Assembly (NCBI RefSeq): GCF_036711975.1
Contig: NC_091976.1
Span: 33,356,001-33,420,000, forward strand
Direction: 5' to 3'
DNA length: 64,000 nucleotides
From: Onthophagus taurus
Taxonomy: Eukaryota; Arthropoda; Insecta; Coleoptera; Scarabaeidae
In this document: positions 13,301 through 56,190 of the stretch, piece by piece
Layout: each line of letters starts with the position of its first letter
Numbering within the stretch: the stretch's first letter is position 1
Made by a program: the position numbers and the translations under genes
Notes under the pieces: model-generated
What the model saw: only the letters and a program-made list of their open reading frames with translations
What the model was told of the DNA's origin: nothing
Database searches by the model: none

Positions 13301-15179
13301 ACATTGTGATAATATCTCAAAATCTAAAACCGAAAAATTTTTTTTGACTACGTCATCAAATTCTCTGTAAAAAAGTGTCCATATAATGTTTTAGTTATAA
13401 TACTCCAGCTATAATAATAACCAAGATAATTGCGCTTGCTGGTTTTACGATATTTTCAATTTTAGCCTCTAGCGGAAAAACAAAAGACGATAGCGCTATG
13501 AGGTTTTCGGCATTAGCAATTTCTCGAAAAACGAGATCATGACATGTAAGCTACTTTTTTTCTAACTCTTATAGTTTCCGAGTTAGCCTATTCGGACATC
13601 GAATTTGAACCACCCTGTACACTCTACCCTTCCAAAAACCTGTCTGTCCATCCGGAAACATCCCCCCTATCTCAATCTTTTCCTCCAATCTTCCCAGCAG
13701 TATCTTCGCATAAATCTGGTATGAGGAGTTGAGTAGGCTGATTCCATTCTAATTAACCACTACTCTCTTACTTCCCTTCTTGTGCACTGGGCATATTATA
13801 CTCATCCTCCAACTGTTCCTTCACACACTGTTCAACGTCTCTAACAGCTTCCCTCTCACCTCTCCTACCGCCTCCAACCATGCCTCGTTCTGTATCTCAT
13901 CCTCAACCCCCTCGAAACTGTTATCAACTCTTCTTCCATAATCTCCTCACCATCCTTAGTCGTCTCCTCCTCCTCGACCGCCTCCAAGTGACTCCTCCAT
14001 CTGTATTTCGCTACCGACCTCCTCCTTTCGCTTTCTCAACTTCTTCAAATACCTCCACACATCTCCTTCCCATCTTAACTCCTTAATTTTTGCTGCCTCC
14101 CTCAACCTCAGCTCCCTTTTCTTTGTCCCACTTACATCTTTGTGTCTTCTTCTTGTCTCCTTATAACTGTTCACCAGAACCTCTCCTCTCCGCCACTGCT
14201 TCAATCTTCTCCTTGTCTCCTTTTCGCCTCCCTGCATTCTCCATCCCATCATGTAAGTAATTTTTTTTTAATTAATTTTTAGTGCGCATCACAAGCTTGG
14301 TATTTAGCGGTTGATACTCAAATGTATTTCTTAGCACCCATTTTATTGATACCTTTGGTGAAATGGCCGAGAAAAACAATTTTTGCAACGATCATTTTGA
14401 TCGTTGCTTCGATTATTTGGGCTTTTTGTGTTAGTTGGAATAAAGATCTCGATTTAATGTATTATAAGTATGTATTAATTAATTATCTAGAGTGGTTTTT
14501 AATTTTAATACTTTTTTTTTAGTTATTCGTTAGATTTTTATAGTTTTTACATCTCAACTCATTTCCGAGCTTCATCTTGGCTGATCGGATTAATTTTAGG
14601 CTATTTTTTATTTACAATTAGAAACAAAAAGTTATTAATTAATAAAAAATTAATAATCTTGTTGTGGATTATCTCAATTTGTGTTATATTAGCCGTTGTT
14701 TTCGGGCATTTCTCTTTTATTGCGATTAACCAACACAGCCGAATCAGATCAAGTATTTTTAACGCTTTCTCAAGACCCGCTTGGTGCTTAGCGATTTGTT
14801 GGATCATTTTTGCTTGTTCCAAAGGATTTGGAGGTATTTTTTAAATTGATTTTTACATTTGTTGACTCAAAAAATTTTAGGGGTTATCAACAGATTTTTA
14901 TCGCTGAAATTTTTCGAAATTGGAGTCAAAATAAGTTATGGGATGTATTTGTTGCATGTATTTGAAATTTTATACACAGTGGGAATGGGTAGAGTTGCAA
15001 AATATTTTTCAAACGAAGAGGAATTAAAGATAATTTGGTCCGATTATGTGACGGTTATGTTTTTTGGGCTAATTTGGGTTTTAATTTTTGAATTACCCCC
15101 AATTCACTTGGAGAAACTCTTGTTTAATTACAAACAAAAAAATAAAAATGTTTTAAATGGAATTGTTTTAAATAAATAA
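10365..15179 (+). CDS. NRF-6-like membrane acyltransferase (acyltransferase 3 family), seven exons
   Basis: This belongs to the insect family related to C. elegans 'nose resistant to fluoxetine': an N-terminal extracellular NRF domain followed by a multi-pass acyltransferase-3 domain. The substrate is unknown; roles in lipid or yolk transport are known for some members. The exons are 10365-10572, 10626-10810, 10860-11133, 11183-11712, 14283-14467, 14523-14833 and 14881-15179, giving 1992 nt and 663 aa with all phases consistent. The first ATG is at 10365 (MYHFVLILCVWCVKA looks like a signal peptide). The NRF domain carries GNYDECL, GQYCSV and FGICTPKSCSP. The membrane domain includes LNGIKFISMLWIILGH (the catalytic-type His), FFLISGLLVSY, RLIRLTP, CASQAWYLAVDTQMY and KISYGMYLLH. 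Intron 4 is 2.6 kb because of a nested transposon insertion; the others are about 47-55 nt. It lies 221 bp downstream of the odorant receptor. Confidence 0.93.
11728..14250 (-). mobile_element. LINE (non-LTR retrotransposon) remnant in acyltransferase intron
   Basis: The insert is flanked by a 17-bp direct repeat ATGTAAGTAATTTTTTT (11711-11727 and 14251-14267), a target-site duplication of the length LINEs make. On the minus strand it encodes lysine/arginine-rich sequence, then a reverse-transcriptase stretch. DGQTGFWKGR (near 13640) is followed, across an inserted foldback, by LYAPIDLKTAFDKMDREKLW (near 12130-12190), the finger/palm motif of LINE RTs. An AATAAA lies near the minus-strand 3' end, next to the T-rich duplication. 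Stops and deletions show that it is inactive; its clade was not determined. Confidence 0.72.
12242..13617. mobile_element. TA-flanked long foldback element nested in the LINE
   Basis: The element starts CAGGGTGGTTCAAATTCG and ends with the complement, flanked by TA (12240-12241, 13618-13619). The arms of about 530 bp (12242-12770 and 13090-13617) are complementary with scattered mismatches around a 320-bp AT-rich centre. Removing it with one TA restores a continuous LINE reading frame across the RT motifs, so it inserted after the LINE. No transposase is seen. Confidence 0.8.
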
Positions 15180-15578: not shown

Positions 15579-16742
15579 TTACAAGTTCATGGCAGTTTCA
15601 TCGCCGTTGTTTAATTCGCCGCTATCAAATTCTATGGCCAACCGATTTCTATCAATACAAGTTCCATCATCAGCCATCCGACACGCCTCCAAAACGTATT
15701 TATTAAAAACTTCCGCTTTATCAGCATAAACATGATGTCCGGCACCGGGGATAACAAAGCTTTGTACAAAACAATCCGGTCGTTTCTCTTTAACGATTTC
15801 AGCCGCGGTGTTATCAACCCAAGATCTTGACCCATAAAGCAACGTAATTGGAACTTTAGGACTTAATTTATCGATGCGATTAATCATCGGTTGTTTGGCC
15901 CATCCAAACCCGGCCATCATCGCGTGAAACGCGCTTTCTCCAGTTGGTGGTTGCGCATTACATTGATAAACATATTGCGAAATTAAATTTTCGTCGCCAA
16001 CAAAATGTTGGAATTTCTTCGAAATATCCGGCCTCGCTTTATTAATTAACCATTGTCCTAAAGGACCAGCTACTCTTACCGCGAATAACGGATTAAAAGG
16101 TTGAAAACTGTAGGAAAGAACTCGAACCCATAAAGGTAAGTTGGGTTTCTCCGCTGGTTTTTCTGGAAATCCCCATGGATCGGCCAAAATTAAATGGGCA
16201 ACCCGTTCCGGGTGACAAATCGCGTAAGAAGCGGCCAAAAACCCACCCAAACTATGTCCCAAAAGAACGAAATGGTCTAAATTCATCTCTCTTCTCCATG
16301 CTTCTAACGCGTCAACCATTTGAGTTTCAGCTTCGGCTGCTTCTTTGCTGAAAGCGGGGCGAGAACTTCGCCCAAAACCCAAAAGATCCATTGCGTAAAC
16401 TGGACGTTCCATTGCGAGAGAATCCAAGTTTAAGCACCAAAACGCAACACCCGCGCCTAAACCGTGTAAGAGAACAATCGGAGTATTTTTATTTGGTGTG
16501 TTCATTGAGATTGTCCAAATTTTATCGGAATGTCCAACAACGGGGCCAATATCCGTGTACCATCCCCGATATGGCGTTTTTACATACGAAAGAATCTTCT
16601 TTTCGGCGGTTCGTAATAAATTTTCGGAGAATTTGTTCCAAGAAAGCCATTGCGAACTCATCCAACCGACTTGCTGCTGTTGTTGCGGTGATCGGTCATC
16701 GATTTCCGCAATAGCTTTGTTATTATCAGAAATATCCGACAT
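15579..16742 (-). CDS. Alpha/beta hydrolase, ABHD4/ABHD5 (pummelig-like) lipid hydrolase
   Basis: The protein is a 387-aa single-exon alpha/beta-hydrolase. The family acts on N-acyl phospholipids (ABHD4) or as a lipid-droplet co-activator of triglyceride lipase (ABHD5/CGI-58). Visible elements are LLHGLGAG (oxyanion region, residues 91-98), GHSLGG with a serine at position 164, the probable acid in LLYGSRSWVD (310), and GAGHHVYAD near 334-341, which holds both the catalytic histidine and the HX4D signature of the ABHD4/5 branch. ABHD5 of vertebrates has Asn in place of the nucleophile, so this protein is predicted to be an active enzyme, as in ABHD4 and the single insect member. A poly-Gln run (20-24) lies in the N-terminal tail. 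A tryptophan-rich N-terminal segment (WMSSQWLSWNKF) resembles the lipid-droplet or membrane anchor of the family. The absence of introns in the coding region is unusual but the frame is intact. Confidence 0.92.
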   Translation of the reverse strand: MSDISDNNKAIAEIDDRSPQQQQQVGWMSSQWLSWNKFSENLLRTAEKKILSYVKTPYRGWYTDIGPVVGHSDKIWTISMNTPNKNTPIVLLHGLGAGVAFWCLNLDSLAMERPVYAMDLLGFGRSSRPAFSKEAAEAETQMVDALEAWRREMNLDHFVLLGHSLGGFLAASYAICHPERVAHLILADPWGFPEKPAEKPNLPLWVRVLSYSFQPFNPLFAVRVAGPLGQWLINKARPDISKKFQHFVGDENLISQYVYQCNAQPPTGESAFHAMMAGFGWAKQPMINRIDKLSPKVPITLLYGSRSWVDNTAAEIVKEKRPDCFVQSFVIPGAGHHVYADKAEVFNKYVLEACRMADDGTCIDRNRLAIEFDSGELNNGDETAMNL

Positions 16743-17184
16743 TTTTCTTTGGAAATTTTTAACTAAATATCACTTGTAAGATGTTTTGGATGACTTTTAT
16801 TGTTTTGAATCCGTTTTTGTTTTACTTTCACATCGTCATTATCACTTTTTTTTTGATTAATTTTTTTTTTGTTGCGTTTTATTACTTGGTAAATTTTGAA
16901 GGCAGTTAACTGTCAAAAAAACGACCGCACCTTGTCGAATCGCTAACTGCTCTAAACGTTATCGAGATTCCTGAAATCATTTGCTGCTCTCGATGATAAC
17001 GACTCAATTCAATTCGAATTCTTTTTTTAGATATGCGTATTAGAAAACGAAACGCTTTGTTAATGAATAGATTAGAGTCCAACTCTTTGTTTATAAACGT
17101 CACAATTCACCATTGACATAAGTATTAATAAAAAAAAGCGGATTTTTATTATTTTAAGGAAGCGAGTAGGAAAATTATTGTGTC
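16743..17184. other. 5' flank of the ABHD4/5 gene
   Basis: AT-rich sequence lies between the ABHD4/5 start codon and the 325-bp satellite. It should contain the ABHD promoter and 5' UTR, read on the minus strand. No gene or clear motif is visible. Minor complexity around 16915-17000 (TTGTCGAATCGCTAACTGC) is the most promoter-like part. Confidence 0.4.
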
Positions 17185-21365: not shown

Positions 21366-22140
21366 TACCGAGAATTTCATGTAACCCGCAATATGTATAC
21401 AGGTGTATCTGAATGACGTTCCCAAACTTCAAAGAGTGATTCTTTAGCAATTTAAGGGTACTTTCTTATATGAACTATGAGCAACTTCGACTCCCCTGGG
21501 GAGCTACACCCCTTCAAAAATGGAGGAACATTTTGGTTTAATTTTTTTTTCTCGAAAACCATAAACACCACAAAAATGAAATTTGAGAAATAAGTTCAGC
21601 TCATAATATAGCACGTTTCTAGAATGTAGTAACCATAGTTACGAAACTACTATGTACTTGCACTGTCCGACATAAAATGCAACATAGCTTTATAGTACAG
21701 GCTTGGATAGTATTGCAAAGGAAAAGTTTTGCTTGGAAAAGGTGACACCCTTATGATAACTCTGAGTTTCCGTCTTAGGAGACGCATATAGTTCTAGGTC
21801 TAGTGTTAGTTCTAGTTTTACACTAACACTGTAGAACTAGAATCATTTGAGTTTAGCTGCACGTCTCTAAAGACGGCTAAACCAGAATGATTTTAGTTCT
21901 AGGTATAATGTTAGTTCTAGTTTTACACTAGCACTGTTACTATGTAGAACTAACACTATACATAGAACTAGAATCATTTGGGTTTGGCAGCACATCTCTA
22001 AAGATGGCTAAACCTGAATGATTGTAGGTCTAGTGTTAGTTCTAGCTTTGGTGCAATAAAAATATGCAATATAGTAATATTTTACGCTAACTAGCGCTAT
22101 CTATCGGTTAAACGGTATGTCTCCAGTTCTACTTTTCTAA
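21366..22140. repeat. TACCG-GAATTTCAT ended repeat with insertion and CTAG palindromes
   Basis: It begins TACCGAGAATTTCAT, then has an inserted segment (about 21400-21640, starting CAGGTGTATCTGAATGACG). It resumes with GTAACCATAGTTACGAAACT and ACATAAAATGCAACATA as at 1475-2040, and from 21780 it runs into four diverged CTAG palindromic units (AGTTTAGCTGCACGTCTC, AGACGGCTAAACC). Confidence 0.6.
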
Positions 22141-23158: not shown

Positions 23159-24891
23159 TCATTGTGATTCCTGTGCAGAACGAACATCATCGATCTTAAG
23201 AATCATTTTAACCAATTGAGTAGCAAGCTTAATTTGTTGCCTCTTCGATTTAAGAGATTCTATAACGTGTTGATCTCTCATATTAACATTCCCAGTTTGC
23301 ATGCAATCAATTCCCAAAGCAGAATCGCCGGTTCCCGCTTGTTTAGCTTTAACTTCGGCTAAAGCGTGAATAGCGCTTAATCCGCTATTTTCGGCTAACG
23401 CCAAAGGAATGCTTTCTAAAGCTTCGGCGAATGCTCGAAAAGCGTATTGTTCTAAGGAAGCTAACAAGTCAGCTTGAGCCGCTACGTATAAACTACAAGC
23501 AATTTCAGAGGCTCCTCCTCCATAGACAATACGAGGTTCTTGGATGAGACTTCTAATAACGCATAAAGCATCATGTAAGCTTCTTTTAGCTTCAGCGACT
23601 AACATTGCGTTACCACCGCGTACTAAAATAGTAACGGCACGCGAATTCGAACATTCTTCGATAACCAACATTTTATCTTTGGTTGTACCGAAAGATAATT
23701 CACGAACAAGACCGGCTTTTCCTAATTTATCCGGTGTAAGTTCCTCAAAACGAGGTACGATTCGTCCACCGGTTGCAATAGCGATTAATTCAATCTCAGG
23801 ACCTCCAACCCATCGAACCGCCGGTAACTTTTGTTGTAACAACAAATGATTAGCTTCATCGTCGAAACCCCATTGGCAAATAGCCAAAGTTGTCCCTGCA
23901 TTTTTAACTTGAGTAACCATTTCATTAAATTTCTCTTGTTCATATTTCCTTAACTCCTTATAATCTTCAGTGCTAGTTACATCTAACTTATGTTTAGTTT
24001 TTGGTTTTGGTGGTTCAAAGGGACAAGTTAAAATTGCGATTTTAACATCTTTTAATTCTTTAGGCATTTGGGGGTGACTCATTGTTTTATCGATCACAAC
24101 CCCTTTAACCAAAACGGTGTCTTCTAATCGACCCCCAACTTTTCCCTCAACTTTAATCAGTTCAAAGTTAACATCCCTTGTTTCTAAATTAGCAACTTGT
24201 AGTACGGCTTTAACAGCAATTTCAGCCATTTGGCGATGACATTTGTTAATGATTTTTGATCCCAACGTGGTCATAGCTACTTTTATGAGAGGTTCAAGGT
24301 TATCTTCAGCTACTGGAAAGAGTTCGGCGATTTTATCTAGGTGCTCCACAGCTTTTTGAGCTGCTAATTCAAAACCATCCGCTATTCTGATTGGGTGAAT
24401 ACCACGATCTAATAAAGCCCCAGCTTGCTCTAAAAGGGCCCCAGCTAAGACCACAACGCCAGTTGTTCCATCCCCGATTTCGTCATCTTGCGATTGGGAC
24501 AATTGAACGAGTAATTTACCAACTTCGTGCTCGACATCCATCATTTTTAAAATGGTGGCACCATCGTTGGTTACGGTTACATCACCGTCAGGTGACACCA
24601 TCATTTTGTCTAATCCTTTGGGGCCCAATGACGTTTTGATGGTGCCTGCGATTTGTTTTGCGGCCATAATATGGGACTAAAATGGATTTTTTCATATTAA
24701 TTGAGTTATTATAGACAAAATTAAGGTTTTTTTGAACATGTGTGAAATTATTGTGGGTGTTTACAAATTAGACATAACCTCACCTTGAGGGCATCGGCTC
24801 CTGTCAAACGTTTTTGCTTGTCTTGGTCCCTAATGATTATAAAAGGTCTACCGTATTCATCAAAGGCGATACTTCCTGGGAGGGAAGCCAT
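23159..24891 (-). CDS. CCT5: T-complex protein 1 subunit epsilon (chaperonin CCT5)
   Basis: This is one of eight subunits of the cytosolic chaperonin that folds actin, tubulin and other proteins with ATP. Minus-strand exons are 24891-24784 (36 codons, [18 protein letters not shown]...) and 24676-23159; the intron is phase 0 and the total is 541 aa, exactly the family length. The first exon gives the epsilon-specific start FDEYGRPF, and the junction reads [14 protein letters not shown]. Group II chaperonin motifs are present: [37 protein letters not shown] (ATP site), and near the C-terminus [10 protein letters not shown] and [12 protein letters not shown]. No frame defects are seen. The start codon is 528 bp from the divergent eIF3k gene, so a shared promoter region is likely. 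Confidence 0.97.
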
Positions 24892-27499: not shown

Positions 27500-27860
27500 T
27501 AATATAACTAAAACTAGAACTAACACTAGACCTAGAACTAGAAACATATGGGTTTAGACGTCTTAAGAGACGCACTGCTAATAATATATTACAATCTAAA
27601 CCAAAACAATCAACTATTCCTATTTTTTGAATTCTTTGAAGTATATGGACAACATCCGATTTATTTATTTTAACTTATTTTCTCCTTATCAAGTATCCTC
27701 GAGATGTTTCTTGGGGATTAGAACCATTTTGACACACCCCAACCCAATTAAGCAATAATTCCCATTATCTGATTTCTTTAGTGTTTATGGACAACATCTC
27801 ATTTAATTATTTTAACTTATTTTTTCTTTCTCTAGTATCTACGAGATGTATATAACTATC
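27500..27860. repeat. CTAG half-palindrome joined to dispersed repeat arm
   Basis: It opens with AACTAACACTAGACCTAGAA and a GGGTTTAG half-palindrome. It then continues as ACAATCTAAACCAAAACAAT, TGGACAACATCC and TATCAAGTATCC, the same order found at 37660-37840 and, inverted, at 30450-30725. A second partial copy of the ACAACATC...CTAGTATC segment follows at 27785-27850. Confidence 0.65.
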
Positions 27861-30200: not shown

Positions 30201-30449
30201 CTCGATGTTACGGACCTCATTAAACTTTTTAGTGTTAGTTCTAGTTTTAAAAATGATGATACTTAAATAGAAACTGTTTCAAAGCTCATAGGAAATAGAA
30301 AAAGCTCTGTGGTATGTGTCAAAATGCTTCTATTTGATAGGAAACGTCTTGGGGATACTTGACAAAGAGATAATAAGTTTAAAAAATGAAATTGGATGTT
30401 GTCCATAAATTCCAAAAAATTCTGAAAATGGGAATAATTGATTACTTTG

Positions 30450-30971
30450 GTTCAAAATGATTCTAAATGGTTAAAAATATCTCAGTAATACTTAACAAGG
30501 ACGTTTAAATTAAAAAATATACTTGTGTGGCTTTTGAAAGTGTTTTAATGTGGCAAAATGTAGAGAAAAGTTGTTGGTGTGTGTCACAATAGTTCTAATC
30601 GACAAAAAACATTTCAAGGATACTTAATAGTGAGAAAATAAGTAAAAATAATTAAATGGATTGTTGTTCATAAACTAGAAAGAATACAAAAAATGGAACT
30701 AATTGATTATTTTGGTTACTAAACGTAAAATCTAGAAAGTTCTATAACTATAACTATACCTAATATGTAACTATAACTATACCTAATATATAACTATAAC
30801 TAATACCATACCTAGAACTGGAAACCTTTGGGTTCAGCCGTCTTGAAAAACGTCTGGCTAAACCCAAATGTTCCTAGTTCTAAAACTTACTTTTAAAACT
30901 AAAACTGGAACTAACAGTAGAACTAGAACTACAAATGTTTGCGCCGTGCGTCTTTAGACGTGGTTCCTTAA
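30450..30971 (-). repeat. Left arm of large inverted repeat, distal part
   Basis: The segment 30450-30725 matches the complement of 37655-37910 in order (AAGTTGTTGGTGTGTGTC, GGATACTTAATA, AATTGATTATTTTGG). It is followed by ACTATACCTAATAT simple repeats and two CTAG half-palindromes up to the TTAA at 30968. The adjoining 30200-30450 is a more diverged copy of the same arm. Confidence 0.7.
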
Positions 30972-32836
30972 CCCTTTGTGTCCCAAGAAGTCAAACATTT
31001 TGAAACTTTGTGACAGAATCAGACAGAATTAAAACGCTATCAAAATACACTCAGTAAAGGCCTTTGGAATAAAATTTTAGCAAAATATGCAATCCCCCTA
31101 TTTTCGCATAGTCTAAATGTCAAAAAAGATGCTAATTCAAAAATTCGTGGAAACCGTGTTTATTGAAATTAAGAAATAAAACTTATTTTAAATTGAAGCT
31201 TTCTGTTTAAATCGATGTATAACAATCGATGGGTTGAATTAAAAAAATATTGAGAAAAAGAGTATTGAGTTAAAACTAACATTTTGTATAACCTAAAAGT
31301 GTCAAAAAAGATGCTAATTTAAAAATTCCTGGAAGCCGTATTTATTGAAATTAAGGAATGAAACTTATTCTAAATTAAAGCTCAAAGCTTTCTTTTTAGA
31401 ATGATGTATAATAATTGTTGGGTTGGATTGGAAAAATATTGACAAAAAACATGTTGAAATAAAACTTACATTTTCGTATAACCTAAAAGTGTCAAAAAAA
31501 ATGCTAATTTAAAAATTCCTGGAAGCCGTATTTATTGAAATTAAGGAATGAAACTTATTTTAAATTAAAGCTCAAAGCTTTCTCTTGAAAATGATGTATA
31601 ATAATTGTTGGGTTGGATTGGAAAAATATAGAGAAAAAAAATTTTGAAACAAAACTTACATTTTCGAATAACCTAAAAATGTTAAAAAGATGCTAATTTA
31701 AAAATTCCTGTAAGCCGTATTTATTGAAATTAAGGAATGAAACTTATTTTTAATTAAAGCTCAAAGCTTTCTCTTGAAAATGATGTATAATAATAGTTGG
31801 GTTGGATTGGAAAAATATAGAGAAAAAAAAAGTTGAAATAAAACTTACATTTTCGTATAACCTAAGAGTGTCAAAAAAGATGCTAATTTAAAAATTCCTG
31901 GAAGCCGTATTTATTGAAATTAAAGAATGAAACTTATTTTAAATCAAAGCTCAAAGCTTTCTCTTTAAAATGATGTATAATAATTGTTGGGTTGGATTGG
32001 AAAAATATAGAGAAAAAAAAAGTTGAAATAAAACTTACATTTTCGTATAACCTAAGAGTGTCAAAAAAGATGCTAATTTAAAAATTCCTGGAAGCCGTAT
32101 TTATTGAAATTAAAGAATGAAACTTATTTTAAATCAAAGCTCAAAGCTTTCTCTTTAAAATGATGTATAATAATTGTTGGGTTGGATTGGAAAAATATAG
32201 AGAAAAAAAAAGTTGAAATAAAACTTACATTTTCGTATAACCTAAGAGTGTCAAAAAAGATGCTAATTTAAAAATTCCTGGAAGCCGTATTTATTGAAAT
32301 TAAAGAATGAAACTTATTTTAAATCAAAGCTCAAAGCTTTCTCTTTAAAATGATGTATAATAATTGTTGGGTTGGATTGGAAAAATATAGAGAAAAAAAA
32401 AGTTGAAATAAAACTTACATTTTCGTATAACCTAAGAGTGTCAAAAAAGATGCTAATTTAAAAATTCCTGGAAGCCGTATTTATTGAAATTAAGGAATGA
32501 GACTTATTTTAAATTTAAGCTCAATGTTTTCTTTTTAAAATGATCTGTAATAATCACACCTAATAACCATTTATCAAAGAAATACCTTTTTGAACAACAA
32601 AATTCAACAGCACCACTTTTCACCAAACTTCTAACCTCACATCTGGATGAATAAGTTTAAAGTGTACCTGAAAATCCTACAGTGCGGATTGCGACGTTTT
32701 TTATACAGATTCTCTCTTGTATACACTTGTATAGTAGAAAGTACCGACAGCTTTAAATGCGCCGAATAGATAACTACAGTTTAAAATGAGTGTTTAAAAT
32801 TACTGGTACTTTAAAGTACCGTCGGGACACAAAGGG
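30972..32836. mobile_element. TTAA element with 13-bp terminal repeats carrying a satellite array
   Basis: The perfect inverted termini CCCTTTGTGTCCC (30972-30984) and GGGACACAAAGGG (32824-32836) are flanked by TTAA (30968-30971 and 32837-32840), as in piggyBac-type elements (TTAA, CCC...GGG). The homologous locus at 37.63 kb reads GGTTCC-TTAA-ATATCC (on the complement), with a single TTAA and no insert. This is direct evidence of a precise insertion. There is no transposase; about 1.4 kb of the 1.87 kb is a 190-bp tandem array. Confidence 0.82.
31120..32560. repeat. 190-bp tandem array, about 7.5 copies
   Basis: The landmark TTCCTGGAAGCCGTATTTAT recurs every 190 bp (31329, 31519, 31709 with T for G, 31899, 32089, 32279, 32469). 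Copies from about 31800 to 32450 are almost identical and earlier ones are diverged, so expansion was recent at the right side. An inner AAAGCTCAAAGCTTT palindrome occurs in most copies. Confidence 0.92.
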
Positions 32837-32840
32837 TTAA

Positions 32841-33420
32841 ATATCCTATGATGCAAATGGGTTAAGTTATTATGATTTAATACAAAAAATTAAATAATAA
32901 AGTTCTTATAATCAATTTTAAGTTTAATAACTTTACAGATTCACAATTATTTGACTTTTAAACGTCAAATTGACAATTAAACGTCAATATCGTTAAAAAT
33001 CTAGATCTCAAAAACTCAAAAATCAGGTAATTTTATGTAAAAAATCTTATGGAAATACTAAAATTAGCGAAAAATATTACTATAAATCAAAAAATTTATG
33101 AAAAAACTGGTATGAAATATGCGATATCAAAAGTTTTTCAAAAATTTAGGTTGGTACCATTTTTGTTGTGGTTTTTAAGAATGTCAAAGTGACGTTTAAC
33201 GTTACGATGACATTTGTATGTCAAAATTATTAAAAAAATCAAAAACGGTTAGAAATAGAACGAGAAAAATAAAATATCAATAAGAATGTTGGATGGAAAA
33301 CTATAGCATTTATCAAATTTATCAGAATGAAATAATTAACACCATTATTGTAAAATGATCTGTACAAAAAATATTTGACTTTTAAACGTCAACTTGACAA
33401 TTAAACGTCAAACTAACACT
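32841..33420 (-). repeat. Left arm of large inverted repeat, proximal part
   Basis: It is complementary to 37066-37629 over about 570 bp with roughly 90% identity (for example GGTATGAAATAT, AGGTTGGTACCATTTTTGTT, GACGTTTAACGTTACGATGA). The arms enclose 3.6 kb containing a unique region and the 131-bp palindromic array. Confidence 0.85.
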
Positions 33421-33600
33421 AGACCTAGAACTAGAAAGTTTCAGGTTTGCACGGCTAAACCGTCTGACGACGAATATTAAACCCGAAACTTTCTAGTTCT
33501 AGGTAGAACTAACACTAGACCTAGAACTAGAATCATTCATTAGTCTTGAGAGACGCACGGCTAAACCCGAATGTTTCTAGATTTAGTGTTAGTTCTAGTT
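33400..33600. repeat. CTAG palindromic repeats at the inner edge of the left arm
   Basis: About two units: CTAACACTAGACCTAGAACT, AACCCGAAACTTTCTAG, AGACGCACGGCTAAACCCG. Confidence 0.75.
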
Positions 33601-33617
33601 TTAATTATTATTCAGCT

Positions 33618-33680
33618 GTGACGTCACAAACGGGCCTTCAAACTGTGTCCTCTTAGATTCTACCGTCCTTGGTATAAATA
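33618..33680 (+). promoter_or_regulatory. CRE palindrome and TATA box, possible core promoter
   Basis: GTGACGTCAC (33618-33627) is a perfect CREB/ATF site, and TATAAATA lies 46 bp downstream (33673-33680). If used, transcription would start near 33705. No obvious coding region follows, so this could be an enhancer or a non-coding promoter. Confidence 0.25.
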
Positions 33681-35745
33681 CTAATAATCTGAACGAGAAC
33701 GGGTAGTTGTCTGAATAAATGCGCATTGATATTATTGATATAACAGACTCTTCTTTCCCCGCATTAATCCGTTAAATCGAGGTTTAACGGTATTAAAATT
33801 TTTTTGCAAAATCTTAGCGTAAACAATGGTTAATAAGGGGCTCATCGAAAAAGTACATCGGCTTCGAGGACGAAGCGACCTTCTCTTAATGTCGAGTGAA
33901 GTCGGTGCGTGCGAGCGCGAAAGGAAAATCACTCAATCAATTAAGACGTCGGGTAATTATGGACGCGGCATTAAAATACCGATTAAATTTCTTAGATAGG
34001 TTAATTAGAAAAACGTCGCCGTCGTTCCGAGAAAAAATAGAAGAATTTAATTTTTAAGTTTGATTGCTTAATACTTATATTAAACGGGTATGCCTTCTCC
34101 CGAAGTGTCATCTTTAAGAAGACATAATCGCCCCGGCGCGAATTCTCCTAAAGTCGACGAAATTTATCTGAATAAGCCGGGTCTCTGTTCGATAATCGGA
34201 GATTTTTCGAGAAGCTGATTATGCTTTTTCGAGCTCCTAAATTTGGATCAGCCCTCACATACGATTACAATAAATCCGCGGTTTATGTACCCCGTTTAGT
34301 TGTGTATTTATATAGTCGGTAAGAAAAACGGAAACGTTCAAGACATCGCGAACGTTGTTTAGAAGCCGTCCCATTTCTCTTTAATATTCATGGGGATGGC
34401 GCGGTCGGCAAATTAATCGAATTTGTTGTTTGCACGTCGGCTCTGTCGTTGCAACACCGCCGAGGACACATAAATTCCAACGAACGTCCAGACTCGTCCT
34501 GCTGTTATTTACCTTATTTGACACGTTTGCGACGGTTTTATCCATTAATTAATCCGTGAAAAAAAAAAAAATTCTAATTTTATTCGAGCTTTAAACACAT
34601 TTTTTATACTTAATTATATTTTAATTATTAATTTAAATTTGTAATGGACAAAAATTACAATTCGTTGACACCTATTTACAAGATGACAACCTAAAGTTTA
34701 TAATTTTTTCTTTTCCTGTTAGAATAAATTTGTTTCAATAAATTTCGTCTACGTTCAAAATATTTAGGTTCTTCAAACAGACTTTAAAGCCAAATTTGAT
34801 GATATGTTAATGAATAATCTTTAAAAGCAAAAAATTAGGTGAAAAATACACGTTGATTAATGAACGTATCCTATTCACTGTCATTTTGACAACTGTCACT
34901 GCCAAATTTTAAAACTGTCAATTAATCAATGATGTAAGAGCATTATTAAATAATCACATTATTTATATTCTATATTTGGTATAAAAAATGTTTTAATTCA
35001 AGCTTAATTCTTAATTATATAGATTTAAGTCATTAAGTGAAATGAAGAAGACTTGTTGGAATTTGGAATTTAGGTACACACGATCCCACTTATATTCGAT
35101 TAAAATTTATCGGAAAAATTATTAGGATGGCGTAAGAAACTATTTTTTCCTCCTATCGAAACTCTCATTAGTTTAATCGTGATTAAATAGTTGAAACGCT
35201 TAACTTAAAAAATACGGCCTTTAAGTTTTGGAAACCCAAATAATTTCAAACTTTCTTAAAAAAAATTTTTTCTCCATCTTTTTTTATAAATTTCTTAAAA
35301 TAATCGGATTTAATATAAAAATCGTTAATTATAACATGGTGAATTAATAAGAAGATGCCTGTACAAGAGGGGAAACGGCTTGGAAGTTTTTCTGAGGTCG
35401 CCCTGGTTTATTTGTCAAATCCTTATTTATGGGCGGCCGCGATAATGAACCTTCTTGCCTCTAAAATAATGCGATTGTTGTCCCGCGTCTTCTAGCTTGG
35501 AAAGACCGAAGAGAGGAGAAGAGAAACCCCCCTCGACAGAAGCCCGACAGACGACCTTTAATGCTGAGTAATTTAGTAAATGCGGGATTACGTCGGGTTA
35601 GTTCTTACGCAGCGTATAAATTCAAATTTGCCATCCTCGGCAAAAAAAAATATTTTTATTTTTTTTTTTTTAATAAAAAATGTGATAATAAATTTTAAAA
35701 CAGTCAACATCAAATTTTATTCATTTTTAATACATTGCAACTAAA
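33681..35745. other. Unique non-coding region with conserved-looking patches
   Basis: There is no gene. GC-richer, non-repetitive patches lie at 33830-34020, 34090-34290, 34340-34540 and 35370-35640, separated by AT-rich DNA. Their complexity and lack of repeats suggest cis-regulatory modules, presumably for dachsous, but no specific site was recognised. Confidence 0.35.
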
Positions 35746-37065
35746 ACTAGAGTAATACTAGCATCAGAACTAACAATACACTTAGAACTAGAAACAATGT
35801 CTCTAGTTCTACGAATGTGAAAATGTACCACATTCTAGCATTGAATAACAATTAAAACTAGAACTAACAGTAGACCTAGAACTAGAATCATTTGGGTTTA
35901 GCCGCACGTCTCTAAAGACGGCTAAACCCGAATGATTCTAGTTCTAGGTATAGTGTTAGTTCTAGTTTAACACTAAAACTGTTACTATGCAAAACTAACA
36001 CTATACCTAGAACTAGAATCATTTGGGTTTAGCCGCACGTCTCTAAAGACGGCTAAACCCGAATGATTCTAGTTCTAGGTCTAGTGTTAGTTCTAGTTTA
36101 ACACTAAAACTGTTACTATGCAAAACTAACACTATACCTAGAACTAGAATCATTTGGGTTTAGCCGCACGTCTCTAAAGACGGCTAAACCCGAATGATTC
36201 TAGTTCTAGATATAGTGTTAGTTCTAGTTTAACACTAAAACTGTTACTATGCAAAACTAACACTATACCTAGAACTAGAATCATTTGGGTTTAGCCGCAC
36301 GTCTCTAAAGACGGCTAAACCCGAATGATTCTAGTTCTAGGTATAGTGTTAGTTCTAGTTTAACACTAAAACTGTTACTATGCAAAACTAACACTATACC
36401 TAGAACTAGAATCATTTGGGTTTAGCCGCACGTCTCTAAAGACGGCTAAACCCGAATGATTCTAGTTCTAGGTATAATGTTAGTTTTAGTTTTACACTAG
36501 CATTGTTACTATGTAGAACTAACATTATACATAAAACTAGAATCATTTGAGTTTAGCAGTACATCTCTAAAGATGGCTAAACCCGAATGATTCTAGTTCT
36601 AGGTCTAGTGTTAGTTCTAGTTTAACACTAAAACTGTTACTATGCAAAACTAACACTATACCTAGAACTAGAATCATTTGGGTTTAGCCGCACGTCTCTA
36701 AAGACGGCTAAACCCGAATGATTCTAGTTCTAGGTATAGTGTTAGTTCTAGTTTAACACTAAAACTGTTACTATGCAAAACTAACACTATACCTAGAACT
36801 AGAATCATTTGGGTTTAGCCGCACGTCTCTAAAGACGGCTAAACCCGAATGATTCTAGTTCTAGGTATAATGTTAGTTTTAGTTTTACACTAGCATTGTT
36901 ACTATGTAGAACTAACATTATACATAAAACTAGAATCATTTGAGTTTAGCAGTACATCTCTAAAGATGGCTAAACCCGAATGATTCTAGTTCTAGGTCTA
37001 GTGTTAGTTCTAGTTTTACACTAGCACTGTTACTCATTTGGATTTAGCCGCACGTCTCTAAAGAT
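35746..37065. repeat. 131-bp palindromic satellite array (CTAG family), about nine copies
   Basis: The unit recurs every 131 bp (GTTACTATGC at 35981, 36112 and 36243). Each unit is a near-perfect palindrome: CTAGAACTAGAATCATT, GGGTTTAGCCG, a short loop with CGTCT/AGACG, then CGGCTAAACCC and AATGATTCTAGTTCTAG. Two units (about 36480-36590 and 36870-36980) are a diverged variant (AGTTTAGCAGTACATC) at a spacing of about 393 bp, showing a higher-order repeat of three. Confidence 0.93.
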
Positions 37066-37910
37066 GTTGACGCTTAATTGTCAAGTTGACGTTTAAAAGT
37101 AAAAAATTTACTTTTTGTACAGATCATTTTACAATAATGGTGTTAATTATTTCATTCTGATAATTTGATAAATGCTATAGTTTTCCATCTAACTTTCTTA
37201 TTGATATTTTATTTTCTTGTTCTATTTATAACCGTCTTTGATTTTTTTAATATTTTTGACATACAAATGTCATCGTAACGTTAAACGTCACTTTGACATT
37301 TTTAAAAACCACAACAAAAATGGTACCAACCTAAATTTTTGGAAAACTTTTGATATTGAATATTTCATACCAGTTTTTTTATAACTTTTTTGATTTATAG
37401 TAATATTTTTCGCTAATTTTAGTATTTCCATAAGATCTTTTACATAAAATTAACTGATTTTTGAGATCTAGATTTTTAACAATATTGACGTTTAATTGTC
37501 AAATTGACGTTTAAAAGTCAAATAATTGTGAGTGTAAAATTATTAAACTTAAAATTGGTTATAAAAACTTGATTATTTAATTTTTTGTATTAAATCATAA
37601 TAACTTAACGCATTTGCATCATAGGATATTTAAGGAACCATGTCTGTGTTAGTTCTATAAAAATATACAACAATCTAAACCAAAATAATCAATTACTTCC
37701 ATTTTTTGATTTTTTTCAAAATTATTGACAACATTCCATTTAATTATTTTAACTTATTTTCTCCTTATTAAGTATCCTCAAGATGTTTTTTGACGATTAA
37801 AACAATTTTGACACACACCAACAACCTTTTTCTACTATTGAATTATCCTATTGAAGTGTCACAGAGATATTTTAAACCATTTAGAGCCATTTTGAGCTAA
37901 AATTATCTAT
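37066..37910 (+). repeat. Right arm of large inverted repeat (contains empty TTAA site)
   Basis: It complements 32841-33420 (via 37066-37629) and 30450-30725 (via 37655-37910). At 37630-37633 a single TTAA marks the uninterrupted form of the site occupied at 30968-32840 in the left arm. Confidence 0.85.
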
Positions 37911-42672: not shown

Positions 42673-42693
42673 TCCGCCAGAAAAGTGTCGAAG

Positions 42694-44409
42694 ATGGAGC
42701 CTTTCTGGATCCTATTGCCGCTCTTGCTGGCTTTGGCCCGCTCGGAATTGGTAAGGGACCTAGAGGTGTCCGAAGGTGCTCCCGTTGGTACCAGAATCGG
42801 ATTCATCGAGGAAGGTGTCACCACCGATAGCGGGCCGCCTTATTTAGTAGTTCCGGTTGGTAACAGCGTCAACACCGACCTATTAATCGATTTGACAACT
42901 GGTGAAATTAGCACGAAAGTTCTTTTAGATCGAGAAACTCGTTCGAGTTACTCGTTAGTCGCAATCACGATAAGCGGTTATAACATACAAGTCCACATCA
43001 AAGTTTTAGACGAAAACGATAACGCCCCAACGTTTCCCGTTGGCGTGATGACCATCGATTTTCCCGAAAACACCCCGTTAGACGTTAAAAGAACTTTACA
43101 CCCAGCGAAAGATTTGGATTTGGATCAATACAACACTCAAAGATACAACATTGTATCGGGAAACGTCAACAATGCTTTTCGATTGAGCGCGCATCGAGAA
43201 CGAGACAGCGTTTTATATTTGGATCTCCAAATAAACGGATTTTTAGATCGCGAATCGATTGCTTCGTACAGTTTATTAATCGAAGCTTTAGATGGGGGAA
43301 CCCCACCTTTAAGGGGCGAAATGATGGTTAACATCACGATTCAAGACGTCAACGATAACCAACCGATTTTTAATCAAAGCAGATATTTCGCGACAATTCC
43401 CGAAAACGCAACCGTTGGAACAACCGTCTTACAAGTTTTCGCAACGGACACCGATTCCAACGAAAACGGAAAAGTCGAATATTCAATTAATCGAAGACAA
43501 AGCGATAAAGATGTAATGTTTCGAATTGATTCAACGACCGGGTTTATATCAGTAAATAAACCGTTAGATTTCGAAACTAAAGAACTTCACGAATTGGTGA
43601 TAGTAGCGAGAGATCGGGGGTTACAACCGCTGGAAACGACAGCTTTCGTCTCGATTAAAGTGACCGATGTTAACGATAACCAACCGACGATTACCGTCAT
43701 CTTTTTAAGCGATGACGCAACCCCGAAAATATCGGAATCCGCCCAACCAGGCGAATTTGTTGCACGAATCTCGGTGAACGATCCCGATTCAAAAACGGAA
43801 TACTCAAACATTAACGTAACGTTAGATGGTGGCGAAGGACATTTCGGTTTAACAACTCGAGATAATATCATATATTTAGTGATCGTTTCTCTTCCGTTGG
43901 ATCGCGAAATCCAACCGAATTATACTTTAAATGTGGTTGCAACCGATACCGGAACACCACCGCTTCACGCATCGAGAACAATTTTATTAAAAGTGACCGA
44001 TATTAACGATAACGCCCCGGAATTCGAAAAAGATGTTTATCAAGCGAATGTTATGGAAATTTCCGATCCGGGAACGAGTGTTATCCAAGTGTCCGCGACC
44101 GATAAAGATGAAGGCAATAATAGCGCGATCACCTATTCGTTAGCCGAAACGTCGGATACTCATTATTCGTGGTTTCAAATTGATCCGCGTAGTGGTTTAG
44201 TGACAACGAAGGTGCACGTCGATTGTGAAACCGATCCGGTGCCAAAGTTGACGGTGATCGCGACCGATAATGGTTTTCCACCGTTGTCTTCTTCCGCAAC
44301 GGTTCACGTAACTATTCATGACGTCAACGACAACGAACCCATCTTCGATCAAAGTTTTTACAACGTTTCCGTTGCGGAAAATATCGCCGAAGGAAAATGC
44401 ATTTTAAAG
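42694..44409 (+). CDS. ds: Dachsous (atypical cadherin), first coding exon, partial gene
   Basis: This is the N-terminus of the giant cadherin that binds Fat and controls planar polarity and Hippo-dependent growth. The exon runs from an acceptor at 42650 to GTAAGT after 44409 and encodes 572 codons (phase 0 end). The start is MEPFWILLPLLLALARS, a signal peptide, followed by LVRDLEVSEGAPVGTRIGFI, typical of the mature Dachsous start. Five complete cadherin repeats follow, each closed by a calcium-binding DxNDNxP box: DENDNAP, DVNDNQP, DVNDNQP, DINDNAP and DVNDNEP; the sixth begins QSFYNVSVAENIAEGKCILK. Dachsous has 27 repeats in flies, so most of the gene lies beyond the right edge of the window. 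The large leading exon, long next intron and upstream untranslated exon agree with known ds architecture. Confidence 0.93.
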
Positions 44410-44639
44410 GTAAGTCGTTTAAATTAATTCATTGATTTCAAATAAAATTTCATTTATTATTTATCGTTACGGCGACGCCCTATTTTTCCATAAATGATAC
44501 CGAGTAATTGAGACGTAATCGTAATTTAATCAATGTTGAAATGTTGTTTTTCTTGTAAATCATCTGAGACAACCTGGAAATTATTAGACATTTTTGGATA
44601 TTCAATGAAGTTCTTAAATGTTCCAGATAATTCATGAAT

Positions 44640-47275: not shown

Positions 47276-47334
47276 GGAACAGAGAAACGGTTGTGACAGG
47301 TATTTGGAGTTATTACTTTTTAGGACACGAATGT

Positions 47335-47525
47335 GTTTAACTCTAGGTCTAGTGTTACTTCTAAAATTAAAACTGGAACTAACACTAGACCTAGAACTAG
47401 AAATATTTGGGATTAAAAACTGTTAAACCAGCCGTACGTCTCTCAAGACGGCTAAACCCGAATGTTTGTAGTTCTAGATTTACTATTAGTTCTAGTTTTA
47501 GTATTAATTCTAGTTTTAGTTATTC
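47335..47525. repeat. CTAG palindromic repeat unit
   Basis: One diverged unit (CTAACACTAGACCTAGAACT; AGACGGCTAAACCCG). It is followed to about 47560 by GCGAATGGGTTAAGTTA, related to the sequence next to the TTAA site at 32850. Confidence 0.7.
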
Positions 47526-50455: not shown

Positions 50456-53400
50456 ATTTTTTAATTTTTGATTTTCCAAGATGGTCAAATTTGACATCAA
50501 TTTATTATTTGACAATTTTGACCCATTTTATATCATATCATCTTAAAGTACATACTTTCAGCTTTAATTTGACATAAAAATCATGTAATAATAACCCGAA
50601 ATAAAGGAGATATCATTTTTTTAATTTTTCGATTTTTTCGAAGATATTATTTGACATCAACTTATTATTTGCCAATTTTGAGCCATTTTTCATTAATAAA
50701 CACCCATGTTACACCAAATCATCTTAAAGTACACATTTTCAGCTTTAATTTAATATAAAAATCATTTCATAATAACTTTAAATAAAGCAGATATGGGTTT
50801 TTTTAATTTTCGATTTTCCAAGATGGTCAAATTTGACATTTATTTATTATTTGACAATTTTTAGCCATTTTTCTTTAATAAACACTCATTTTATATCATA
50901 TCATCTTAAAGTACATACTTTCAGCTTTAATTTGATATAAAAACCATGCAATAATACTCGAAATAAAGGAGATATGATTTTTTTTAATTTTCGATTTTTC
51001 CAAGATGGTCAAATTTGACATCAATTTATTATTTGACAATTTTGACCCATTTTGTATCATATCATATTAAAGTACATACTTTCAGCTTTAATTTGACATA
51101 AAAATCATGTAATAATAACCCGAAATAAAGGAGATATCATTTTTTTAATTTTTCGATTTTTTCGAAGATATTATTTGACATCAACTTATTACTTGCCAAT
51201 TTTGAGCCATTTTTCATTAATAAACACCCATGTTACACCAAATCATTTTAAAGTACACATTTTCAGCTTTAATTTAATATAAAAATCATTTCATAATAAC
51301 TTTAAATAAAGCAGATATGGGTTTTTTTAATTTTCGATTTTCCAAGATGGTCAAATTTGACATTTATTTATTATTTGACAATTTTTAGCCATTTTTCTTT
51401 AATAAACACTCATTTTATATCATATCATCTTAAAGTACATACTTTCAGCTTTAATTTGATATAAAAACCATGCAATAATACTCGAAATAAAGGAGATATG
51501 ATTTTTTTTAATTTTCGATTTTTCCAAGATGGTCAAATTTGACATCAATTTATTATTTGACAATTTTGACCCATTTTATATCATATCATATTAAAGTACA
51601 TACTTTCAGCTTTAATTTGACATAAAAATCATGTAATAATAACTCGAAATAAAGGAGATATCATATTTTTAATTTTTCGACTTTTTCGAAGATATTATTT
51701 GACATCAACTTATTACTTGCCAATTTTAAGCCATTTTTCATCAATAAACACCCATGCTACACCAAATCATCTTAAAGTACACATTTTCAGCTTTAATTTA
51801 ATATAAAAATCATTTCATAATAACTTTAAATAAAGCAGATATCAGTTTATTTAATTTTCGATTTTTCCAAGATGGTCAAATTTGACATCAATTTATAATT
51901 TGACAATTTTGAGACATTTTTCTGTAATGAACACCCATTTTATATCATATCATATTAAAGTACATACTTTCAGCTTTAATTTGACATAAAAATCATGTAA
52001 TAATAACCCGAAATAAAGGAGATATCATATTTTTAATTTTTCGATTTTTTCGAAGATATTATTTGACATCAACTTATTACTTACCAATTTTGAGCCATTT
52101 TTCATTAATAAACACCCATGTTACACCAAATCATCTTAAAGTACACATTTTCAGCTTTAATTTAATATAAAAATCATTTCATAATAACTTTAAATAAAGC
52201 AGATATCAGTTTTTTTAATTTTCGATTTTTCCAAGATGGTCAAATTTGACATCAATTTATTATTTGGCAATTTTGAGGCATTTTTCTTTAATAAACAACC
52301 ATTTTATATTATATCATATTAAAGTACATACTTTCAGCTTTAATTTGACATAAAAATCATGTAATAATAACTCGAAATAAAGGAGATATCATTTTTTTAA
52401 TTTTTCGATTTTTTCGAAGATATTTGACATCAACTTATTACTTGCCAATTTTGAGCCATTTTTCATTAATAAACACCCATGTTACACCAAATCATCTTAA
52501 AGTACACATTTTTAGCTTTAATTTAATATAAAAATCATTTCATAATAACTTTAAATAAAGCAGATATCAGTTTTTTTAATTTTCGATTCTTCCAAGATGG
52601 TCAAATTTGACATCAATTTATAATTTGACAATTTTGACGCATTTTTCTTTAATAAACACCCATTTTATATCATATCATCTTAAAGTACATACTTTCAGCT
52701 TTAATTTGACATAAAAATCATGTAGTAATAACCCGAAATAAAGGAGATATCACTTTTTTAATTTTTCGATTTTTTCGAAGATATTTGACATCAACTTATT
52801 ACTTGCCAATTTTGAGCCATTTTTCATTAATAAACACCCATGTTACACCAAATCATCTTAAAGTACACATTTTCAGCTTTAATTTAATATAAAGATCATT
52901 ACATAATAACTTTAAATAAAGCAGATATCAGTTTTTTTAATTTTCGATTCTTCCAAGATGGTCAAATTTGACATCAATTTATTATTTGGCAATTTTGAGG
53001 CATTTTTCTTTAATAAACAACCATTTTATATCATATCATATTAAAGTACATACTTTCAGCTTTAATTTGACATAAAAATCATGTAATAATAACCCGAAAT
53101 AAAGGAGATATCATTTTTTTAATTTTTCGATTTTTTCGAAGATATTATTTGACATCAACTTATTACTGGCCAATTTTGAGCCATTTTTCATTAATAAATA
53201 CCCATGTTACACCAAATCATCTTAAAGTACACATTTTTAGCTTTAATTTAATATAAAAATCATTTCATAATAACTTTGAATAAAGCAGATATCAGTTTAT
53301 TTAATTTTCGATTTTTCCAAGATGGTCAAATTTGACATCAATTTATAATTTGACAATTTTGAGACATTTTTCTGTAATGAACACCCATTTTATATCATAT

Positions 53401-56190
53401 CATATTAAAGTACATACTTTCAGCTTTAATTTGACATAAAAATCATGTAATAATAACCCGAAATAAAGGAGATATCATTTTTTTAATTTTTCGATTTTTT
53501 CGAAGATATTATTTGACATAAACTTATTACTTGCCAATTTTGAGCCATTTTTCATGAATAAACACCCATGTTACACCAAATCATCTTAAAGTACACATTT
53601 TTAGCTTTAATTTAATATAAAAATCATTTCATAATAACTTTAAATAAAGCAGATATCAGTTTTTTTAATTTTCGATTTTTCCAAGATGGTCAAATTTGAC
53701 ATCAATTTATAATTTGACAATTTTGAGGCATTTTTCTTTAATAAACAACCATTTTATATCATATCATATTAAAGTACATACTTTCAGCTTTAATTTGACA
53801 TAAAAATCATGTAATAATAACCCGAAATAAAGGAGATATCATTTTTTTAATTTTTCGATTTTTTCGAAGATATTATTTGACATCAACTTATTACTGGCCA
53901 ATTTTGAGCCATTTTTCATTAATAAATACCCATGTTACACCAAATCATCTTAAAGTACACATTTTTAGCTTTAATTTAATATAAAAATCATTTCATAATA
54001 ACTTTGAATAAAGCAGATATCAGTTTATTTAATTTTCGATTTTTCCAAGATGGTCAAATTTGACATCAATTTATAATTTGACAATTTTGAGACATTTTTC
54101 TGTAATGAACACCCATTTTATATCATATCATATTAAAGTACATACTTTCAGCTTTAATTTGACATAAAAATCATGTAATAATAACCCGAAATAAAGGAGA
54201 TATCATTTTTTTAATTTTTCGATTTTTTCGAAGATATTATTTGACATAAACTTATTACTTGCCAATTTTGAGCCATTTTTCATGAATAAACACCCATGTT
54301 ACACCAAATCATCTTAAAGTACACATTTTTAGCTTTAATTTAATATAAAAATCATTTCATAATAACTTTAAATAAAGCAGATATCAGTTTTTTTAATTTT
54401 CGATTTTTCCAAGATGGTCAAATTTGACATCAATTTATAATTTGACAATTTTGAGGCATTTTTCTTTAATAAACAACCATTTTATATCATATCATATTAA
54501 AGTACATACTTTCAGCTTTAATTTGACATAAAAATCATGTAATAATAACTCCAAATAAAAGAGATATCATTTTTTTTAATTTTTCGATTTTTTCGAAGAT
54601 ATTATTTGACATCAACTTATTACTTGCCAATTTTGAGCCATTTTTCATTAATAAACATCCATGTTACACCAAATCATCTTAAAGTACACATTTTCAGCTT
54701 TAATTTAATATAAAAATCGTTTCATGATAACTTTAAATAAAGCAGATGAGTTTTTTTAATTTTCGATTTTCCAAGATGGTCAAATTTGACATCAATTTAT
54801 AATTTGACAATTTTGAGGCATTTTTCTTTAATAAACACCCATTTTATATCATATCTTCTTAAAGTACATACTTTCAGCTTTAATTTGACATAAAAATCAT
54901 GTAATAATAACCCGAAATAAAGGAGATATCATTTTTTTAATTTTTCGATTTTTTCTAAGATATTATTTGACATCAACTTATTACTTACCAATTTTGAGCC
55001 ATTTTTCATTAATAAACACCCATGTTACAACAAATCATCTTAAAGTACACATTTTCAGCTTTAATTTAATATAAAAATCATTTCATAATAACTTTAAATA
55101 AAGCAGATACGAATTTTTTTAATTTTTGATTTTTCCAAGATGGTCAAATTTGACATCAATTTATAATTTGACAATTTTGAGGCATTTTTCTTTAATAAAC
55201 ACCCATTTTATATCATATCATCTTAAAGTACATACTTTCAGCTTTAATTTGACATAAAAATCATATAATAATAACCCGAAATAAAGGAGATATAATTTTT
55301 TTAATTTTTCGATTTTGTCGAAGATATTATTTGACATCAACTTATTACTTGCCAATTTTGAGCTATTTTTCATTAATAAACACCCATGTTACACCAAATC
55401 ATCTTAAAGTACACATTTTCAGCTTTAATTTAATATAAAAATCATTTCATAATAACTTTAAATAAAGCAGATATGAGTTTTTTTAATTTTCGATTTTTCC
55501 AAGATGGTCAAATTTGACATCAATTTATTATTTGACAATTTTGAGGCATTTTTCTTTAATAAACACCCATTTTATATCATATCATCTTAAAGTACACACT
55601 TTCAGCTTTAATTTGACATAAAAATCATGTAATATTAACTCGAAATAAAGGAGATATCATTTTTTTAATTTTCGATTTTTCTAAGATGTCATTATTTGAC
55701 ATCAACTTATTACTTGCCAATTTTGAGCCATTTTTCATTAATAAACACCCATGTTACACCAAATCATCTTAAAGTACACATTTTCAGCTTTAATTTAATA
55801 TAAAAATCATTTCATAATAACTTTAAATAAAGCAGATACGAGTTTTTTTAATTTTCGATTCTTCCAAGATGGTCAAATTTGACATCAATTTATAATTTGA
55901 CAATTTTGAGGCATTTTTCTTTAATGAACACCCATTTTATATCATATCATCTTAAAGTACATACTTTCAGTTTTAATTTGACATAAAAATCATGTAATAT
56001 TAACTCGAAATAAAGGAGATATCATTTTTTTCAATTTTCGATTTTTTCTAAGATGGTCATTATTTGACATTAACTTATCACTTGCCAATTTTGACCCATT
56101 TTTCATTAATAATTTATTAATTATTAATAATTAAAGTTTTCAGTTTAATATAAAAATCATCTCATAATAACTGTAAATAAAGGGGACATG
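50456..56190. repeat. 181-bp satellite, about 31 copies, dimeric and higher-order
   Basis: Two alternating monomer types, one with AAATAAAGGAGATATCA and one with AAATAAAGCAGATAT, alternate to give a unit of about 361 bp. Blocks of about 720 bp are duplicated almost exactly (53096-53812 against 53813-54540, sharing the rare TGAATAAAGCAGATATCAG and CATGAATAAACACCCATG variants). Each monomer holds CATCTTAAAGTACA, AGCTTTAATTT and ATAAAAATCAT. Confidence 0.95.

Follow-up and report, generated by a model that had tools for sequence, protein, structure and literature searches.

A satellite array within a TTAA-bounded element, apparently of piggyBac type, and its paralogous empty site in the beetle Onthophagus taurus

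For insects, the question of how short arrays of satellite DNA arrive between genes is unsettled. A 64,000-nucleotide stretch of the Onthophagus taurus genome, referred to here as the window, raises this question at a single locus, where an array of 190-bp units is enclosed by short inverted repeats and TTAA, and a second copy of the surrounding sequence lies nearby in the opposite orientation. The combination of a TTAA shell, an internal satellite and a neighboring empty site provides a well-defined test case, and the 13-bp ends can serve as an exact query for genome-wide searches. What kind of element this is, what the second copy says of its movement, and where its satellite came from are considered in turn.

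Structure and class of the element

The element was found to have the following layout, with coordinates given relative to the first letter of the window.

30968-30971, no strand: left TTAA target-site duplication, read from the sequence
30972-30984, plus strand: left 13-bp terminal inverted repeat, CCCTTTGTGTCCC, located by pattern search
30985-31099, plus strand: left shell, 115 bp, one copy in the window, no similarity to the 190-bp unit above that of shuffled sequences
31100-32554, plus strand: 190-bp satellite array, 7.7 copies, defined by its tandem-repeat period
32555-32823, plus strand: right shell, 269 bp, one copy in the window
32805-32820: palindrome GGTACTTTAAAGTACC, within the right shell
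32824-32836, minus strand: right 13-bp terminal inverted repeat
32837-32840, no strand: right TTAA target-site duplication, read from the sequence

The sequence between the two TTAAs is 1865 bp long. Its 13-bp ends are perfect and inverted, and the initial annotation of perfect 13-bp termini and TTAA duplications around a 190-bp array was borne out, with both ends located and the array measured. The array (1455 bp, period 190, 7.7 copies, 93% matches) accounts for 78% of the element, which is gene-less. Stop-to-stop ORFs of at least 35 aa that overlap the element number 22, the longest being at most 50 aa; a Pfam scan of three of the 22 gave no match, and no transposase gene or remnant was found among them. 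Because of the short ORFs and the absence of a Pfam match in those three, the element was not filed as autonomous. As a separate observation on the window at large, the Pfam scan of seven of its 19 ORFs of at least 120 aa returned a match to odorant receptors (7tm_6, a family not known outside insects), and two of the seven had no match.

Within the array, units 5 to 7 are mutually identical, units 2 to 4 are 91-96% identical among themselves and to units 5 to 7, unit 1 is 82-84% identical to the other units, and unit 8 is truncated. The center is thus more uniform than the edges, which is the product that would be expected from unequal exchange.

A non-autonomous element of piggyBac type is the best reading of these features. 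The target site is duplicated as TTAA, and the short inverted ends, CCCTTTGTGTCCC being perfect at both, start with CCC(T), as in piggyBac elements. TTAA duplications are likewise recorded for beetle piggyBac elements, and four of the six end motifs listed for them are CCCT or CCCTTT (PMC12732532); the CCCTTT start of the present element agrees with this motif. The terminal inverted repeats of the beetle elements are given as up to 26 bp in the text of that source and as 6-46 bp in its table (PMC12732532). The ends of piggyBac are described as asymmetric, 35 and 63 bp long, with some short repeats common to both (PMC7351741). Here, a comparison of the left and right shells for subterminal repeats gave no alignment above shuffles, and the ends comprise only 13 bp. 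A second class of TTAA element is Kolobok, and a Kolobok-type MITE would find a precedent in the Xenopus T2-MITEs, one of which bears Xstir tandem repeats, so that target and tandem-repeat cargo are both alike (PMC6004289). However, Kolobok/T2 termini start with purines (AG or AGGRR) in the same source, whereas those of the present element start with CCC; this assignment was rejected on that account, and we consider it very improbable.

When the whole window was searched with up to three mismatches, TTAACCCTTTGTGTCCC (TTAA followed by CCCTTTGTGTCCC) matched only at 30968-30984 on the plus strand and 32824-32840 on the minus strand; these two matches compare with 0.13 expected, and two of 100 shuffles gave as many. 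For the 13 bp without TTAA, at up to two mismatches, two matches were found where 0.51 were expected, and 10 of 100 shuffles gave two. TTAA-bounded inverted 13-mers as a class are common in the window, with 44 pairs at up to two mismatches and 14 perfect pairs, versus three to nine pairs, none of them perfect, in five Markov-simulated windows. Thirteen of the 14 perfect pairs lie within longer inverted repeats; the element is the fourteenth. A scan for filled and empty sites was also made, in which 1103 TTAA sites with 12-base flanks agreeing within two mismatches yielded 27,221 combinations, a number inflated by satellites. In just two of these were inverted ends present (at most two mismatches in 13), namely the element and a mirror parse of the same junctions. 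It is the paralogous empty site, not the inverted ends alone, that distinguishes the element.

The empty site and the order of events

The sequences flanking the element and their counterparts at the empty site are as follows.

30560-30967, plus strand: left flank of the filled side, made up of a 158-bp dispersed unit, a palindromic-satellite fragment and GGTTCC
32837-33411, plus strand: right flank, or arm, of the filled side, 92.9% identical to 37633-37067
37067-37633, minus strand: arm of the empty copy, with TTAA at its end
37630-37633, no strand: single TTAA, the empty site
37634-37835, minus strand: opposite flank at the empty site, with GGAACC and then the 158-bp unit

The relative of the filled-side flanks thus occupies 37067-37835 on the minus strand and has one TTAA and no insert, a clean unoccupied target as expected for a piggyBac-type element. 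The same flanks had been proposed to surround this site at 37.63 kb. On the ATATCC side this is well supported, as 32837-33411 and 37633-37067 agree at 92.9% over 579 columns, with 25 substitutions in 563 aligned bases (4.4%). On the GGTTCC side the proposal holds for only about 12 bp, 11 of the 12 bases beside the TTAA being matched (AGAC[G/A]TGGTTCC); beyond this, palindromic-satellite sequence of unequal length intervenes, and then 158 bp match at 86%.

The three TTAA junctions also permit the mirror parse, in which the mobile unit would be 32837-37633, with inverted arms of about 570 bp, and the junction at 30968 would be the empty site; it is one of the two hits of the filled/empty scan. 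In this parse, however, one of the required flank pairs has nothing in common but the 13-bp inverted repeat, the shells beyond being at background. Moreover, the arm homology crosses the TTAA into GGTTCC and, past the interruption, into the 158-bp unit. Since flank homology continues through the TTAA in this way, the mirror parse is disfavored, and we give it hardly any credence. An assembly artefact at the array or the arms seems just as remote: the three identical 190-bp units could collapse or expand during assembly, which puts the unit count at risk, but a misassembly would not be expected to yield both the exact symmetry of TTAA and 13-bp termini and an empty copy that has diverged.

The 158-bp outer unit occurs five times in the window (27600-27743, 27742-27850, 30297-30451, 30561-30716 and 37679-37834), and palindromic-satellite sequence adjoins it at 27511-27581 and 30789-30963. 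A short satellite-like remnant, TAGAACTAACAC, is present in the empty copy at about 37.65 kb. The 567-bp arm is represented in the window by two full copies and one partial match of 69 bases. Given the five occurrences of the 158-bp unit, the second copy, presumed to be an inverted paralogue, is at least in part a composite repeat that is dispersed and found in two orientations. The initial annotation had invoked one inverted duplication; such a single event is possible as the origin of the two copies, but their partly dispersed nature does not allow it to be taken as given.

The empty copy indicates that the element moved, either in or out; the order of events is not given by this copy alone. 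Excision of piggyBac is reported to be seamless, with a single TTAA restored and no footprint (PMC7351741), so that the lone TTAA of the empty copy could be either a target that was never filled or a donor site restored after excision. For this reason the locus does not constitute internal proof, as had been claimed, that duplication came first and insertion second. The opposite history would have the element once residing in the now-empty arm and excised precisely, with one TTAA left behind, and seamless excision would yield exactly the present sequence (PMC7351741). The sequence evidence favors neither history, but excision needs one extra event, and we regard it as unlikely. Insertion into one copy of the repeat is the simpler history and is the one followed here.

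Relatives of the satellite elsewhere in the window

Two further arrays of similar period lie downstream of the element.

50.5-56.1 kb: 183-bp satellite array
60.3-63.1 kb: 182-bp satellite array

The satellites of the window were compared by monomer shuffles, using one unit per satellite and 200 shuffles per pair. The z value was 7.0 for the 190- and 182-bp units, 8.2 for the 182- and 183-bp units and 3.7 for the 190- and 183-bp units; the 190-bp unit against those of 173, 176, 325 and 131 bp gave values of at most 0.2, which is background. The value of 3.7 is weak alone, because the 182- and 176-bp units, a pair unsupported by profile searches, also reached 3.6. In profile searches, the 190-bp profile matched 16 stretches of the 182-bp array (best E 2.7e-6) and four stretches of the 183-bp array (best E 0.024), in both cases on the minus strand. 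In the reverse direction, the 182- and 183-bp profiles matched the 190-bp array eight times (best E 4e-6) and seven times (best E 0.0013), respectively. The 176-bp array was unmatched by any of the 190-, 182- and 183-bp profiles at E 0.1, and at the same threshold none of 15 column-permuted profiles matched anything. E-values from array-against-array comparisons were set aside, because in AT-rich DNA such values accumulate from one repeated unit to the next. The 190-bp unit, about 58% identical to the 182- and 183-bp satellites, is distantly homologous to these two arrays of the window, a new result that is weak for the 183-bp array.

No TTAA+CC ends were found within 1.5 kb of the 182- or 183-bp arrays, and of the eight arrays examined in the window only the 190-bp array has such ends within that distance. 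Whether related arrays are always bounded by the ends can therefore be answered in the negative for the window. Neither half of the shell has a second copy in the 64-kb window. Because the homologous 182- and 183-bp arrays are without ends and the shell is without a second copy, the satellite superfamily is not exclusive to the shell: two of its three arrays in the window have none. Viral contigs were scanned for exact matches to the ends, to the core of the 190-bp unit and to that of the palindromic satellite, and none of the three scans gave a match. The arrangement is that of a satellite-bearing MITE, with an array inside terminal repeats and related free arrays elsewhere (about 58% identical, hence distant). 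The presence of the superfamily outside such ends counsels caution against tracing all of its arrays to a single packaged one.

Origin of the array and comparison with known elements

No match above shuffles was found between the 190-bp unit and either the left or the right shell, and derivation of the unit by duplication of a piece of the present shell is for that reason unsupported. Since relatives without ends exist and the shells are unlike the unit, sequence comparison favors capture of a pre-existing satellite over an origin from the present shell. Capture from those very 182- and 183-bp arrays is not implied, the relationship being distant (about 58%) and weak for the 183-bp array.

The account that we consider probable is that of a non-autonomous element of piggyBac type that captured a satellite, whose array would have lengthened before a transposase supplied in trans inserted it at a TTAA. 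The element or its ancestor would first have captured one or a few units of an existing satellite, a step with precedents in the rDNA-spacer repeats of Pokey (PMC3849761) and, according to one review, in miDNA4 (PMC12628747), and the array would then have lengthened through unequal exchange or replication slippage. A piggyBac transposase acting in trans would have inserted the element at a TTAA in one copy of the composite repeat, while the second, inverted copy would have kept its bare TTAA. With one filled copy in the window and no autonomous partner seen there, both the piggyBac mover and the joint movement of array and shell are predictions of this account.

A different sequence of steps, less probable in our estimation but deserving of serious consideration, is that the shell was short when inserted, holding a single 190-bp unit or two, and the array grew in place, so that no array was carried. 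The identity of units 5 to 7 and the greater divergence of the edge units are what local amplification predicts, and the single filled copy in the window is also consistent with it. On the other hand, unit 1 differs from the center by about 17%, which exceeds the 4.4% between the arms. This hints that part of the array divergence may have arisen before the arms separated, with the proviso that rates may differ and satellites need not follow that of the arms. The proposal that a mobile shell can carry and seed satellite DNA is unsupported in that form: a TTAA element does hold an array, but with one filled copy in the window the joint movement of array and shell would be a prediction.

A broader reading is that piggyBac-type shells brought the whole 180-190-bp superfamily to gene-rich DNA, through capture of units, their movement to a TTAA and expansion, and decay of the shells, leaving the free arrays at 50.5-56.1 and 60.3-63.1 kb. 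We think this rather improbable; if true, dispersal by shells would represent a piggyBac route for the spread of insect satellites, parallel to that of the oyster Helentrons. Helentrons are not known to produce TTAA duplications or to have inverted ends.

Tandem repeats on mobile elements, including TTAA elements, have already been described (Xmix/Xstir, miDNA4, Tetris and the oyster Helentrons), as have piggyBac elements with repeats of about 200 bp (Pokey, PMC3849761). The present element is thus a clean example of a kind of mobile element already described, not a new kind. Among the matches listed in the literature search, titles and the opening parts of abstracts did not describe a gene-less piggyBac element consisting mostly of satellite.

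Pokey, of the piggyBac superfamily in Daphnia, holds two to five copies of 200-bp rDNA-spacer repeats, and resembles our element in its TTAA, its short ends (12 or 16 bp in Pokey) and its run of approximately 200-bp repeats from a host tandem array (PMC3849761). It differs in that Pokey encodes a transposase, upstream of whose gene the rDNA-derived repeats lie. The Pokey MITEs, mPok, are about 750 bp long, and the relevant parts of that source mention no comparable array in them (PMC3849761), whereas our element is gene-less and 78% array. The Xmix/Xstir T2-MITE of Xenopus (Hikosaka and Kawahara 2004, as cited in PMC6004289 and PMC12628747) is likewise a TTAA MITE with an amplified internal repeat that also forms arrays, but it has Kolobok-type AGGRR ends and its repeat is held to come from the MITE interior. 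In Xenopus tropicalis, miDNA4 (Scalvenzi and Pollet, via PMC12628747 and PMC9659126) is a MITE with an internal satellite of varying copy number; unlike the present element, it belongs to Tc1/mariner. Reviews differ on its origin, one having it capture a pre-existing repeat that later gave free arrays (PMC12628747) and the other having the monomer born inside the MITE (PMC9659126).

Tetris, with its TIR-220 repeats, is a non-autonomous element of Drosophila virilis carrying tandem repeats of about 220 bp that also occur as satellite-like arrays; it is, however, Foldback-like, and its repeats lie within its inverted repeats (PMC4079207). The Cg_HINE elements of the oyster are also non-autonomous carriers of dispersed satellite-like arrays for which an empty-site test was made, but they are Helentrons, of Helitron type (PMC7492417). 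Among beetles, the low-copy satellites of Tribolium castaneum are described as short, euchromatic, AT-rich arrays, most of which have transposable elements, chiefly DNA transposons, within 5 kb (PMC10218199). In the transposon-embedded case reported there, a 164-bp unit lies in the inverted termini of Rehavkus-1_TC rather than in a TTAA shell (PMC10218199).

Palindromic repeat and 158-bp unit

In the window, the palindromic AACTAACACTAGACCTAGAACTAG-type repeat gave 76 matches, both strands together, and was present in two forms: scattered units and two arrays (131 and 127 bp), which are 86% alike. The repeat was located as follows.

2855-5484, scattered
21783-22049
27511-27581
30789-30963
33407-33602
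35862-37070
47325-47500
57667-59050

The 158-bp unit, which forms the outer part of both the left flank of the piggyBac-like TTAA element and the flank of its empty copy, is itself dispersed in the window, with five copies at 27600-27850, 30297-30716 and 37679-37834. Palindromic-satellite sequence adjoins this unit at 27.5 and 30.8 kb, and a remnant is found at 37.65 kb.

Inverted repeats

Besides the 190-bp array inside the TTAA element, a second packaged array was found at 57740-59092, in which the 127-bp palindromic satellite (57793-59050) has inverted flanks on both sides. These flanks share 30 exact bases (57740 / 59063), and the inverted arms extend for 205 nt at 91%; the whole resembles a foldback element. 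Inverted arms of ~530 bp (91.7%) with a spacer of ~330 bp were also identified at 12238-13621, perhaps another foldback element or a MITE. A 744-bp region (5499-6242) shows an 81% match to its reverse complement.

Satellite superfamily and neighboring genes

Three arrays belong to one distant satellite superfamily, the 190-bp array being opposite in orientation to the other two.

31100-32554, 190-bp satellite array
50521-56112, 183-bp satellite array
60286-63128, 182-bp satellite array

The genes around the TTAA element, labeled by Pfam hits, are listed below; eight satellite arrays >1 kb share this 64-kb window with them.

8947-9567, odorant-receptor fragment
11149-11739, acyltransferase fragment
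15579-16769, alpha/beta hydrolase
23159-24676, TCP-1 chaperonin
42673-44427, cadherin
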